NCBI GenBank assembly: GCA_031270845.1
Contig: JAISXF010000050.1
Span: 1-41,900 of the forward strand
DNA length: 41,900 nucleotides
Source: Prevotellaceae bacterium
Lineage (GTDB): Bacteria > Bacteroidota > Bacteroidia > Bacteroidales > UBA932
Reading direction: 5' to 3'
Shown here: piece by piece, positions 2,791 to 41,831 of the stretch
Layout of the letters: each line of letters opens with the position of its first letter
Numbering within the stretch: position 1 is the first letter of the stretch
The notes under the pieces: model-generated
Database searches by the model: none
What the model saw: the letters and a program-made list of their open reading frames with translations, nothing else
What the model was told of the DNA's origin: nothing
Position numbers and translations under genes: made by a program

Positions 2791-3063
2791 TTGGAGTTAA
2801 TAACTCCAAACTTGGAGTTAAAAGCCTCGCGCGCCGAGTTCCGAACTCGGCACGCCGAGTTCCGAACTCGGCACGTCGAGTTCCGAACTCGGCACGTCGA
2901 GTTCCGAACTCGGCACGTCGAGTTCCGAACCCCGCGCGTCGAGTTCCGAACTCGGAATTTGGAGTTCCGAACTCGGCACGTCGAGTTCCGAACCCCGTAC
3001 GTCGGGTTTTGAATGCAGCGCGCCGAGCTCCGAACTCGGCGTATCGGGTTTTGAGGATGTCCT
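2791..3063. repeat. 13 contiguous 21-bp units; canonical unit GCCGAGTTCCGAACTCGGC+AC (19-bp palindrome plus 2 bp)
   Basis: Parsed unit by unit from 2791 to 3063 with no indels. Confidence 0.95.
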
Positions 3064-20401: not shown

Positions 20402-21385
20402 ATGAAAAAAGTTGGAAAATATTTGGTGTTCCTGTCGTTGACAGGGGTGTTGCTGTACTTTTCGTTTAAGGGCGTTTCGTGGAAAGAGCTGTTGTCGGGC
20501 ATAAAAGAAGCGAACGGGTGGTGGATTGGCGCGTCGATGGCGGCAGGTTATGCGGCTTTTTTGATACGTGCGCGGCGCTGGCAGTTTATTATTCATCCAT
20601 TGGGATATAATCCGTCGTTCAAGCACACATATGATGCGGTGATGATGACTTATTTAGCGAATTTTGCGATGCCTCGCATGGGCGAGGTGGTTCGATGCGG
20701 GGTTTTGCAGCGGACGGAGAAGATTCCGTTTGAATCGTTGCTGGGCACGGTGGTGATGGAGCGGGCATTCGACTTTATTTGCCTGTTGTTGATCTCAATT
20801 AGCGTGATCTTTTTACAATTTGATACGTTTGTGGCGTTTTGGGGCGAGTTGCAGGCCGCAGAATCGGCGTCGGCGGCGGGAACGGCGGCGAGCGGGGGCG
20901 CTCTTTTATATATATTGGCGGGAACGGCGGCGTTTTTGGCGATAGCGGTTGGGTTGTTGGTGTTTGGTAAGAAGATTGCGGCGTTATCGCTTGGGATGAA
21001 GGTGAAAAAACTGTGGTTCGGGCTGCTCGATGGGCTGAAAGCGGGGTTTCGACTGGAGCGCAGGGTATTATTTTTAACGTACACGGTGGGATTGTGGGTG
21101 ATTTATTTTTTGCAGGCCTACACCGTGATGTTAGCGATGCCGGACACGGTGCATCTTGGGGCGAGCGATGCGCTGTTTTTAATGGTTGTGGGGGGGCTTG
21201 GCTGGGTTGCTCCGGTAAATGCGGGGATTGGGGCGTATCATTTTCTGATAAAGAGCGCACTTTTGATTTACGGGGTGGAAAATGGTGTGGTATTCGCCAC
21301 CATTTCGCATGAGACACAATCATTAATAATGATTTTGTTCGGGCTTGTATCGTGGGTGAGCGTAATGGCCATGCGCAGGCGCTAA
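20402..21385 (+). CDS. Lysylphosphatidylglycerol synthase TM-domain/YbhN-like flippase family protein
   Basis: Multi-TM, RARRWQFIIHPLGYNPSFKHTYDAVMMTYLANFAMPRMGEVVRCGVL. Confidence 0.88.
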   Translation: MKKVGKYLVFLSLTGVLLYFSFKGVSWKELLSGIKEANGWWIGASMAAGYAAFLIRARRWQFIIHPLGYNPSFKHTYDAVMMTYLANFAMPRMGEVVRCGVLQRTEKIPFESLLGTVVMERAFDFICLLLISISVIFLQFDTFVAFWGELQAAESASAAGTAASGGALLYILAGTAAFLAIAVGLLVFGKKIAALSLGMKVKKLWFGLLDGLKAGFRLERRVLFLTYTVGLWVIYFLQAYTVMLAMPDTVHLGASDALFLMVVGGLGWVAPVNAGIGAYHFLIKSALLIYGVENGVVFATISHETQSLIMILFGLVSWVSVMAMRRR

Positions 21386-21540
21386 AAATTAAGGTACTGG
21401 GGGACAGCGTTTGAGATTGGGGCGCGAAAAGGGGAGATCTACGTAAAATTTCTTAAGTTTAAGGCATTATGTGCGGAGTGCATGATGATAATTCTCGTGT
21501 GCACGGCGAGAAGAGGGGAGTTTTTTCTTATATTTTTTAA

Positions 21541-22065
21541 GTGCGTTCTAAAATTTTTTAAGTTTTTTCTAAAATTTTAGAAGTTTTTTCTAAGATTTTT
21601 TAAGTTTTTTCTAAAATTTTTGAAATGCGTTCTTAGATTTTTTAAGTTCTTTCTAAAATTTTGGAAGTTTTTTCTAAAATTTTGGAAGTTTTTTCTAAAA
21701 TTTTGGAAATTCGTTCTAAAATTTTGGAAGTTTTTTCTAAAATTTTGGAAATTCTTTCTAAAATTTTGGAAGTTTTTTCTAAAATTTTGGAAGTTTTTTC
21801 TAAAATTTTGGAAGTTTTTTCTAAAATTTTGGAAGTGCGCGGAGAGATTTGGGGGGGGCGCGATGAGATGAGGCAGGTGCACGATGAGATGAGGCAGGTG
21901 CACGATGAGATGAGGCAGGTGCACGATGAGATGAGGCAGGTGCACGAAGAGATGAGGCAGGTGCACGAAGAGATTTTGCGAGTGCACGATGAGATGAGGC
22001 AGGTGCACGAAGAGATGAGGCAGGTGCACGAAGAGATGAGGCAGGTGCACGATGAAAACTTCTTC
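21541..22065. repeat. 25 contiguous 21-bp units: 15 AT-rich (GTTTTTTCTAAAATTTTGGAA), 1 hybrid, 9 GC-rich (GTGCACGATGAGATGAGGCAG)
   Basis: Parsed unit by unit with no indels; hybrid unit GTGCGCGGAGAGATTTGGGGG at 21835-21855. Confidence 0.95.
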
Positions 22066-22223
22066 CTCCGCGCTGTGAACAGGCGAGATAGCGCCGGCGA
22101 GAGGAGAGAATGAGCGAAGAGGAACAGGGATTTTTAGGGGACTTTTGGGACTTTGGGGACTTTTGGGACAGATGGGGCAAAGAGTAGAGGGGGAGGAAGC
22201 AAAGAATAGAGGAGAGAAAGGAA

Positions 22224-22263
22224 GGAACCACCCCGCCCTGCGGGCACCCCTCCGAAGGAGGGG
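22224..22263. repeat. GC-rich double-hairpin element, copy A
   Basis: GGAACCACCCCGCCCTGCGGGCACCCCTCCGAAGGAGGGG. Confidence 0.9.
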
Positions 22264-22297
22264 AAAAGGAGGGGGAGTTTTGGGGAGAGGAGGGGGA

Positions 22298-22337
22298 GGA
22301 ACCACCCCGCCCTGCGGGCACCCCTCCGAAGGAGGGG
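22298..22337. repeat. GC-rich double-hairpin element, copy B (identical 40-mer)
   Basis: Same 40-mer, 74 bp after copy A. Confidence 0.9.
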
Positions 22338-22399
22338 AATGGAGGGGAAAAGGAGGGGAGTTTTAATGCGGAATTTAGTTGGCGGAAGCCGTTTGTTAC

Positions 22400-22486
22400 A
22401 TGCGAATTGAGAGGCACGAATTAAGAACATGCGAATTAAGAGGCACGAATTGAGAACAGCGAATTGAGAGGCACGAATTTAAAATG
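22400..22486. repeat. Three 29-bp units (ATGCGAATTRAGAGGCACGAATTRAGAAC)
   Basis: Read directly; the third unit is diverged at its end. Confidence 0.85.
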
Positions 22487-22584
22487 AGGGAATTAGAGGT
22501 ATTGATTTTTCTTTCATGGGTCGTAAGATTTTTTTTTAAAATGGGTGAAATTTTTTCCAAAAGTAGTAATTTTTTTCTTATAAA

Positions 22585-22773
22585 ACGTAAAACGTAAGAC
22601 GTAAGACGTAAGACGCAAGACGTAAGACGTAAGCCGTAAGACGTAATTCATCCGGCGGAAGCCGTCTATGTTCTATTATCTATTGTCTATTGTCTGTGTT
22701 CTTTCGTAATTCGTAATTCGTAATTCGTAATTTATCCGGCGTAAGCCGTAATTCGGAATGCGGAATGCGGAAT
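22585..22773. repeat. 27 heptamers in one unbroken register (ACGTAAG, TTGTCTA, TCGTAAT, GCGGAAT classes)
   Basis: Parsed heptamer by heptamer; ends at the stop codon of the RSH gene (22774-22776). Confidence 0.9.
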
Positions 22774-24972
22774 TTAGTTGAGGCGGCTGATTTTTTCGAG
22801 GCCACGGAGGTTTCGGAGATGGTGCATGAGCATGTCAAGATGCTTGTTGTCCTTGACCATGACCTGCAAGTAGCCGGTGAAGGAACCATTGTTGTTATCG
22901 GTAAGGTTTATCGAGCGGAGCGAGCAGTGCAGCTTGGTTATTGTTTCGGTGATGGTGGCAATTAAACCGGTTTCGGTCTCACCGGCGATGCGGAGCTTAA
23001 CAGGAAAGTTGGACGCGAGGGTAGCTGCACGCCACCGTGCCTGTAGTATCCGGTAGGGGTACTTTTCGAGCAGGCGCGCGGCGTTGGGACATGAATGCCG
23101 GTGAATTTTAATCCCTTCGGCAACGGAGACAAAGCCGAAGACGTCGTCGCCATAGATGGGATTGCAGCATTTTGCCAGTTTATAGTCAGTACTTCGCAGT
23201 TTTTCATCAATAATTATATAGTCGTTGTCGGCAGGAGCGTCGGCAGGGGCGGGAGAAAGCGGGAGCTTGCTGCCGGACGCGGCGAGCGGGGCATTAGCGG
23301 CCGCGAGCGGGCTGTCGGCGGTGATGATTTCCTTAATTTGTGCAATGTCAATCTGTTCATTTGCCAAGCCGGCGTAGAGATCGGTAATGTTTTTCAGCTT
23401 ATAATGCTTGAGGAGGCGATTTAATGCTTCGTCGGGGAGGGTAATTTTCCAGTTTTTGAGGCGTCTTTCAAGGAGTTCTCTACCTTCACGCGCGCGCCTT
23501 GCCTCTTCTTCGCGAAGCCGCTGCTTAATTTTCGACCTTGCTTTGGAAGTGATGACGTAATTTAGCCAATCGGCTGCGGGCAGGCGGTTTTTTGCGGTGG
23601 TTATCTCCACGGTATCGCCGGTGTGGAGGGTTTCTTTGATGGCTGCCATGCGACCGTTAATTTTTGCGCCAACGGTATGGAGGCCAATGTTGGTATGGAG
23701 GTCGAATGCAAAGTCAAGGACGGATGCTCCGGCGGGAAGCCGCCGTAAATCGCCGGCAGGCGTGATGACAATTATCTCATTGAGCGCGATTGGTTCGGGT
23801 AAACGGTTGTGGGTGTCGTTGGGCGCTTCGAGCAACTGACGAACCTGGTCGAGCCATGCCTGCATACTTCCTAAATGATGAATACCCTTGTATTTCCAGT
23901 GTGCAGCGACGCCGCGCTCGGCGGCCTCGTCCATGGCGGTGGTGCGGATTTGGACTTCGAGGGGGTGCCCATCGGGGGTTTTGACGGTGGTGTGCAGGGA
24001 TCGGTAACCACTGCTTTTGGGCTGACTGATCCAATCACGAAGCCGGCTGATGTCGGTTTCGTAACATTTCTCGACAATGGAGTAGGCTTTCCAACAGGCG
24101 GCGTCTTCGGCGTCACGAACGGGGGGCGTGTCAATAATTATGCGGATGGCGAAAATATCATAGACTTTTTCAAAGTCAATTTTCTGGTTTTGCATCTTTT
24201 TCCAAATGGAATAGATGGATTTTGTGCGGCTTTTGATGTCAAAAGCAAATCCATCATTCTTTAAAGCGGCTTCAATCGGCCGGATAATATGCTGCAAGAA
24301 CTTTTCACGCTCGGCGGCGGTAGTTTTTAGCTTGTTTGTGATGTGTCTCCAGGCTTCGGGTTCGGTAAATTTGAGGGATAAGTCCTCCATTTCGGATTTG
24401 ACGTTATAAAGACCAAGCTGATGAGCGAGAGGCGCGTAGAGGAGGAGGGTTTCGGTGGCTTTCTGCTGCTGTTTTGCTTTGGGGAAGGCGTCAAGTCGGC
24501 GCATTACTTCGAGACGATCGAGGAGTTTGATGATGACGACGCGGGGGTCTGTGGAAAAAGAAAGTATCAGTTTACGAAAGTTTTCGGCCTGGAGGCTTGT
24601 TTGCTTGATGTCGATGGCGGCGATGCGGTTTAGTCCGTCAACGATGGCGGTTATTTCATCACCATATACTTTACGGATGTCGATTTCGCGCTTTTTCTGC
24701 ATGGCTTCGCATTCCTTCGGCGTTTTTCCGGCGTATTCCTTCTCTTCATGGCGCATTGTTTCGTGCAAAAGAATGGCAATGACGGGAGCGGCCATCAGTC
24801 CGATATCCTCGACGGCGATTTTCGCGACAGCGAGGGCGTGATACAACATGGGATCGCCGTTGTGGCGGAACTTTCCGGCCATGGCCGTGGCGGCGTCGTT
24901 GCAGGCGCGGAGAATGAGTGCGCGCTCGTGTTCAGAAAAATGGGCAGCGGACTGTAAGAGCTGGTGTTGCAT
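22774..24972 (-). CDS. RelA/SpoT homologue (RSH), long form with TGS and ACT domains; probably synthetase-competent
   Basis: RLRDWISQPKSSGYRSLHTTV, EVQIRT..MDEAAERGVAAHWKYK; TTG start at 24996 lies in the promoter, ATG at 24972 preferred. Confidence 0.93.
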   Translation of the reverse strand: MQHQLLQSAAHFSEHERALILRACNDAATAMAGKFRHNGDPMLYHALAVAKIAVEDIGLMAAPVIAILLHETMRHEEKEYAGKTPKECEAMQKKREIDIRKVYGDEITAIVDGLNRIAAIDIKQTSLQAENFRKLILSFSTDPRVVIIKLLDRLEVMRRLDAFPKAKQQQKATETLLLYAPLAHQLGLYNVKSEMEDLSLKFTEPEAWRHITNKLKTTAAEREKFLQHIIRPIEAALKNDGFAFDIKSRTKSIYSIWKKMQNQKIDFEKVYDIFAIRIIIDTPPVRDAEDAACWKAYSIVEKCYETDISRLRDWISQPKSSGYRSLHTTVKTPDGHPLEVQIRTTAMDEAAERGVAAHWKYKGIHHLGSMQAWLDQVRQLLEAPNDTHNRLPEPIALNEIIVITPAGDLRRLPAGASVLDFAFDLHTNIGLHTVGAKINGRMAAIKETLHTGDTVEITTAKNRLPAADWLNYVITSKARSKIKQRLREEEARRAREGRELLERRLKNWKITLPDEALNRLLKHYKLKNITDLYAGLANEQIDIAQIKEIITADSPLAAANAPLAASGSKLPLSPAPADAPADNDYIIIDEKLRSTDYKLAKCCNPIYGDDVFGFVSVAEGIKIHRHSCPNAARLLEKYPYRILQARWRAATLASNFPVKLRIAGETETGLIATITETITKLHCSLRSINLTDNNNGSFTGYLQVMVKDNKHLDMLMHHLRNLRGLEKISRLN

Positions 24973-24993
24973 GACGGGTTCGATTGTTTTTTG

Positions 24994-25001
24994 CAAAGGT
25001 A
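24994..25001 (-). promoter_or_regulatory. TACCTTTG -7 element for the RSH gene
   Basis: CAAAGGTA on + strand. Confidence 0.65.
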
Positions 25002-38954: not shown

Positions 38955-39026
38955 AATTACGAATTACGAATTACGAATTACGGCTACGCAGGAAAAACGT
39001 AATTCGTAATTCGTAATTCGTAATTA
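38954..39026. repeat. Perfect 29-bp inverted repeat built from heptamers, 15-nt spacer
   Basis: TAATTACGAATTACGAATTACGAATTACG at 38954-38982 and its exact reverse complement at 38998-39026. Confidence 0.95.
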
Positions 39027-41671: not shown

Positions 41672-41831
41672 TAATTACGAATTACGAATTACGAATTACG
41701 GACGTAAGGGCGAAAAATTTTTCGCCCCTACCTTTAATTACGAATTACGAATTACGGACGTAGGGGCAACACATGTGTTGCCCCTACAATGAACGGGGAA
41801 CCCGTAATTCGTAATTCGTAATTCGTAATTC
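41672..41831. repeat. Composite element: heptamer inverted-repeat arms enclosing two 28-bp palindromes
   Basis: Arms 41673-41700 and 41803-41830; palindromes 41704-41731 and 41760-41787. Confidence 0.92.

Follow-up and report, generated by a model that had tools for sequence, protein, structure and literature searches.

The tandem array described here, which lies in a stretch of 41,900 nucleotides from a Prevotellaceae bacterium (the window), is very probably a non-coding satellite of constant size belonging to the 20-21 nt class. According to the part of the study by Subirana and Messeguer that was consulted (PMC8161180), certain bacterial satellites have a constant size (20-21 or 52 nt) and a variable sequence; they are species-specific and mostly non-coding, a genome can carry several families of equal length and different sequence, the short class corresponds to two helical turns, and the function is given as unknown. 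The arrays of this genome share the features of that class, namely, a fixed length of 20-21 nt, several same-length families of differing sequence, a mostly non-coding nature, and species specificity. They differ from the satellites in the part of PMC8161180 consulted in that they belong to a Bacteroidales genus, their units are often palindromic, and the arrays switch unit in register. Furthermore, the same part of that source refers to a "characteristic short sequence," whereas here the commonest 4-mer, GAAA, was present in 28 of 58 units (shuffle maximum, 23), and no longer motif was common to most arrays. Neither palindromic cores nor in-register switches were found to be mentioned in the portion of PMC8161180 covered, and no Bacteroidales example of the class was found in the portion of PMC6749651 covered. 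Relative to those portions, palindromic cores and in-register switches are provisionally new for constant-size satellites.

Structure and register of the array

The core of the array occupies positions 21541-22065 and was confirmed to consist of 25 units of 21 bp, with no indels, running from AT-rich to GC-rich (tandem-repeat copy number is unreliable in short-read assemblies). The signal was far above chance, with TRF scores of 440 and 327. Fourteen AT-type units (21541-21834; consensus, GTTTTTTCTAAAATTTTGGAA) share a palindromic core, TTCTAAAATTTTGGAA, with 7/8 dyad pairs. They are followed by the hybrid unit GTGCGCGGAGAGATTTGGGGG at 21835-21855, which is single, as had been claimed, and which matches the AT consensus at 9/21 positions and the GC consensus at 14/21. 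Ten GC-type units complete the series (21856-22065; consensus, GTGCACGATGAGATGAGGCAG), the final one being decayed; the dyad symmetry of this block was not significant (4/8 pairs). No strand is assigned to the array features given here and below.

The original prediction had the array start at 21541. The units at 21541-22065 are real, but the array begins further 5', and weaker matches carry it out to 21436 on that side and to 22086 on the other. Immediately upstream, at 21499-21540, are two in-register units, one GC-like at 21499 (15/21) and one AT-like at 21520 (17/21); the GC-like score of the former was reached by none of the ~41,000 other positions in the window. Probable decayed units, also in register, occupy 21436-21498 (single-site probabilities of 0.001 to 0.03) and comprise an AT-like unit at 21436 (13/21), a weak one at 21457, and a GC-like one at 21478 (12/21; P ~0.002). 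On the other side, a probable decayed GC-like unit (12/21) lies in register at 22066-22086. The full span of the array is probably 21436-22086.

The AT and GC types had been taken for two unrelated families fused in one register, which was not borne out. When the two consensus sequences were compared over all 21 rotations, the best match was obtained at zero rotation (8/21). There are units intermediate between the two types (GTGCGTTCTAAAATTTTTTAA, GTGCGCGGAGAGATTTGGGGG, and GTGCACGAAGAGATTTTGCGA), and GC-like units lie in register on both flanks of the AT block. These three observations suggest that this is one array whose units diverged and underwent homogenization in blocks.

The switch of unit in register had also been regarded as unusual. 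However, further in-register mixed arrays were located at L140, L018, and, in a congener (G005), L193. At L140 (7714-7851), the cores change from GTGCGCAC to TCACGTGA and the linker ...CCCGATAT is unchanged; at L018 (232-316), the core changes and both AACC and the phase are kept. The clearest of these cases, and a sharper parallel to the switch in the window, is L193 (G005:C4, 210-776), in which three families (CCCGTTGACGGTAACGCGCGG, CTCGGAGAGGTCTCTGAGCGA, and CCCATTCCCGGGAATGAACGG) occupy one lattice, with a hybrid unit at 357, dyad centers within ~1 bp, and stops in several units. This array was recognized on visual inspection of neighboring TRF entries; with the strict thresholds used, automated detection of sharp switches picked up the window and a single 7-bp case and nothing else. 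At L144, outer and inner units both carry GCGGGCG and the outer core is different. Because in-register core changes are seen at L140, L018, L193, and L144, the switch in the window is one of several.

These data also bear on the possibility that a short-read assembler joined two separate arrays. The sequence does come from a metagenome assembly, and 23 of 68 arrays of the 21-bp class are located at contig ends. Against this, GC-like units flank the AT block on both sides, intermediate units exist, everything is in register, and similar in-register patchworks are found in G005 L193, L140, and L018. We therefore consider an artifactual join highly improbable, although the copy number may still be wrong.

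Flanking genes and coding potential

Gene calls, which followed a simple ORF rule, place the array between two convergent genes. The upstream gene (20402-21385, + strand) encodes a YbhN-like member of the lysylphosphatidylglycerol synthase TM-region family (PF03706), and the downstream gene (22774-24996, - strand) encodes RelA/SpoT (PF04607, PF13328, PF02824, and PF13291). Both genes are conserved in three congeners (G004, G006, and G008; 67-75% identity), in which the spacer between them is 38-59 bp long, as opposed to 1388 bp here, and contains no array. Given this absence in three congeners, we infer that the array was probably gained in this lineage. For the L144 array, the flanking genes are separated by ~200 bp here and by only ~12-15 bp in G004 and G008.

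Two other intergenic elements were observed in the same spacer. A block of ~190 bp lying 3' of the array (window 22390-22590) is 96% identical to G000:C7:21131-21318, and on contig C7, where the AT unit was found again, an AT-type 21-bp array and GGGACTTTT repeats precede the block in the same order as in the window. Since the order of the elements is also the same, a composite intergenic block seems to have been duplicated. A dispersed intergenic block, GGAACCACCCCGCCCTGCGGGCACCCCTCCGAAGGAGGGG, is present in several copies, including window 22220-22345 and L017 9459-9722.

The array is non-coding DNA, and the protein reading is refuted for practical purposes. The original prediction had raised the possibility of selection on a heptad-repeat protein, in which the array would be part of a coiled-coil gene. 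There is indeed a 150-amino-acid + strand ORF at 21661-22113, with longer open frames on the minus strand, and comparison of the 150-residue product with Pfam returned weak coiled-coil matches, but these amounted to noise, every one of them falling under the curated cutoffs. The ORF has only a TTG start, and six units between 21436 and 21625 carry stops in the + frame; the stops in units 1, 3, and 5, the TTG-only start, and the open minus frame had all been correctly reported at the outset. The comparison of synonymous and nonsynonymous changes between units that had been proposed gave no synonymous excess in either block. Of 28 changes in the AT block, 18% were synonymous, where 21% would be expected; of 11 changes in the GC block, 9% were, where 14% would be expected. 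The numbers are small, and the units share ancestry. The a/d-like spacing of hydrophobic residues, originally held to be unusual, is what 21-bp periodicity would be expected to give, as any open frame of a 21-bp unit yields a seven-residue repeat, and 97.8% of random 21-mers from the same genome had hydrophobics 3-4 apart in at least one open frame. Lastly, the spacer of 38-59 bp leaves no room for the ORF in the relatives, and no homologous ORF was found at the same place in G004, G006, or G008. A coiled-coil gene at this locus is accordingly the least credible of the explanations considered, with next to no chance of being correct. Satellites of 21 bp thus generate spurious "heptad-repeat" ORFs, which is a warning for annotation.

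Avoidance of stop codons was considered as a separate signal and rejected. On average, 4.70 of 6 frames were open per array unit, compared with 3.97 in mononucleotide shuffles, but most of the difference was gone against dinucleotide shuffles (4.48) and circularized random 21-mers of the genome (4.84).

Fixed repeat length in the genome and the genus

The source assembly (2.01 Mb, 85% complete) was sampled as stretches totaling 549 kb, or ~27%. Within this sample, tandem arrays numbered 53 at period 21, 22 at period 42, 5 at period 63, 3 at period 22, and 0 at period 20, and a lag scan assigned 10.3 kb to lag 21, compared with 0.47 kb to lag 20 and 0.57 kb to lag 22. Among the remaining tandem repeats of this genome, many periods are seen (7, 8, 9, 14, 15, 17, and others). 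The 42-bp arrays inspected were composed of two different 21-mers in alternation. Two of the period-63 arrays, L137 (135-903) and L023 (7291-7564), look like 21-residue leucine-rich repeats of the TALTLLNCDSNQLSALDVTQN type when translated; these are probably coding, unrelated to the satellites, and to be excluded from the class. Unit sequences were mostly unrelated between the 21-bp arrays of the genome, with the core AAACGGACGTCCGTTT present at two loci and a 42-bp unit with CTCTCTCGCA found again at several.

The window contains a second 21-bp array between convergent ORFs (2835-3040; unit, CGAGTTCCGAACTCGGCACGT; dyad, CGAGTTCCGAACTCG). A tRNA-Pro called by ARAGORN (minus strand, 2846-2942) falls inside it and was taken as a false hit. 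The two arrays of the window suggested a preference for convergent genes; overall, however, arrays were found in 19 co-directional, 11 convergent, and 6 divergent contexts, which is near background, and no clear difference was seen between array contexts and other intergenic gaps (divergent, Fisher p = 0.19). The preference was therefore discounted.

Period 21 or 42 was detected in 9/9 genomes sampled from the genus, with consensus units that differ among congeners, and periods 22, 23, and 41 also occur in the genus at low frequency. No arrays of period 21 or 42 turned up in the 213 kb sampled from the family's other genera; other Bacteroidales have scattered arrays of period 21 and period 22. 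The period-41 arrays G006 L208 (3302-3549) and L211 (19121-19256) look like reverse complements of each other and members of one family, and another period-41 array is present at G008 L231; period 41 may be a second locked length in the genus. For AlaRS, the nearest named records were Bacteroidales and Prevotellaceae MAGs, at ≤64% identity, which we take to derive from termite guts.

Among diverged arrays of the 21 class, 33/49 were free of indels by TRF, compared with 10/24 for other arrays. Because TRF recorded indels in the remaining 16/49, the lock on length, though strong, has exceptions. The earlier suggestion of helical phasing holds as a pattern, in that period 21 and its multiples dominate among arrays of differing sequence in the genome and the genus, and this class of repeat is known from the literature.

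Three known types of repeat invite comparison. Plasmid iterons are helix-phased direct repeats of ~17-24 bp that are bound by protein and lie beside the rep gene at the origin. The arrays here are likewise direct repeats of similar length phased on the helix, but they are spread over many chromosomal loci and differ in sequence, whereas iterons adjoin a rep gene at an origin. STRR-like heptanucleotide repeats are short simple tandem repeats, and intergenic heptamers are abundant throughout this genome as well, often as inverted pairs (AATTACG/CGTAATT, TAAGACG, and TTCGTAA); the 21-bp arrays, however, are not made of three 7-mers. Heptamer repeats flank many genes, and within the window they are seen at 38955-39025, 41673-41831, and 22581-22732. 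REP and BIME elements are short intergenic palindromes that are species-specific and have possible structural roles (PMC3733652), and in being short, intergenic, species-specific, and palindromic the arrays resemble them. REPs, though, are dispersed copies of one conserved sequence, tagged by GTAG or CGTC, and those with the GTAG tag are associated with RAYT transposases (PMC3733652), whereas here the sequences differ between arrays. REP membership was rejected because the AT unit occurs at only two loci in the genome and the GC unit at one (≤3 mismatches), which is not the distribution of one dispersed palindrome family. An origin through RAYT was rejected as well, as a search of the 85%-complete genome gave no match to a Y1 transposase (PF01797).

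Dyad symmetry and candidate mechanisms

The mean number of dyad pairs at the best center was 6.19/8 in units, compared with 4.9 in shuffles. Dyad symmetry was significant (p < 0.05) in 19/43 units, including that of the AT block, where ~2 would be expected; in roughly one-half of the 21-bp arrays, the GC block among them, no dyad reached significance. Cores were less variable than linkers between units (17 arrays versus 6; Wilcoxon p = 0.005). The central pairs of the dyad were intact in 25/31, and intact centers suit DNA sites better than RNA hairpins. Compensatory changes between the arms were considered, and fine examples exist (AACGTACGTACGTT and TGTGGAGCTCCACA), yet paired cross-arm changes were complementary in 34% of cases compared with 36% of control pairs, so there was no excess and the idea was set aside.

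An element acting at the RNA level, whose hairpins would end or stabilize the convergent transcripts or give rise to small RNAs, is unlikely. RNA from the + strand of the AT block is predicted to fold much more strongly than its shuffled counterparts (z = -10.6), and the same holds for two other palindromic arrays (z = -8.8 and -7.7), and the part of PMC8161180 consulted reports transcription of 52-nt arrays and proposes small RNAs for the class. However, a strong fold of the AT block is to be expected because tandem palindromes fold well by construction, and the GC block folds weakly (z = -1.9 and -2.6). Moreover, single-arm changes showed no sense-strand G-U bias (28 G-U versus 43 A-C), the dyads are mostly loopless, as seen from the intact central pairs noted above, and the array has no terminator-like site.

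The explanation that we tentatively prefer, while giving it somewhat less than an even chance, is that the arrays are phased sites for a putative, probably dimeric DNA-binding protein that reads spacing, and that they were grown and homogenized by slippage or recombination. Either process would enlarge the arrays, make them uniform, and spread local variants as blocks; the position of the AT block inside GC-like units could be the product of such spreading. One or more putative homodimeric proteins of the nucleoid type would bind as one dimer per two helical turns, along one face of the helix. A protein of this sort would recognize how its sites are spaced, and their symmetry, more than the bases they contain, so that the 21-bp spacing would be kept. 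The GC block, which lacks a strong dyad, may represent a portion that has decayed or is under less constraint. This explanation is consistent with the dominance of periods 21 and 42, the unit dyads, the lower variation of cores than of linkers, the in-register switches, and the empty spacers in relatives. Weighing against it are cross-arm complementarity no higher than in controls (34% versus 36%), the lack of a significant dyad in about half of the arrays, the absence of a clear context preference, the indels in some diverged arrays, and the periods of 22, 23, and 41 in the genus.

Nearly as likely as phased protein sites is a purely mutational ruler, that is, a neutral satellite with no cell function. 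In such a satellite, 21 bp would be set by a copying process (either a ruler in the form of a polymerase, a nuclease, or recombination, or else hairpin-assisted slippage), and template switching at quasipalindromes would sharpen the palindromes. Arrays that are present in one species, absent from the same spacer in others, and different in sequence are in keeping with neutrality, as is the finding that cross-arm changes are not preferentially complementary. In odd dyads, the central base had changed to its complement in 13/22 cases, versus 150/606 substitutions overall, or about a quarter (Fisher p = 0.0005), a possible sign that palindromes invert or that templates are switched. Ordinary slippage, on the other hand, would be expected to spread periods, as in the other repeats of this genome, which have many, and cores that vary less than linkers are not readily accommodated. 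The lock is explained only by the polymerase-ruler form, and we know of no polymerase ruler of the kind needed.

A broader proposal, which we regard as doubtful, is that of a genus-wide satellite in which a cellular ruler, either a lattice of protein or the copying machinery, would fix both the 21-bp length and the dyad phase while the core is repeatedly replaced in register. If this were true, what is read in the DNA would be its spacing and symmetry and not its sequence. The core switches, together with the congeners that have empty sites, provide a natural experiment on why some bacteria have a fixed repeat length with differing sequences, since sequence has been exchanged with length and symmetry kept. 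In the 42-bp arrays at L023, L029, L142, and L145, the central base of odd dyads was observed to flip to its complement from one unit to another (CGCACCGTGCG/CGCACGGTGCG and ATTAT/AATAT), as if the cores invert.
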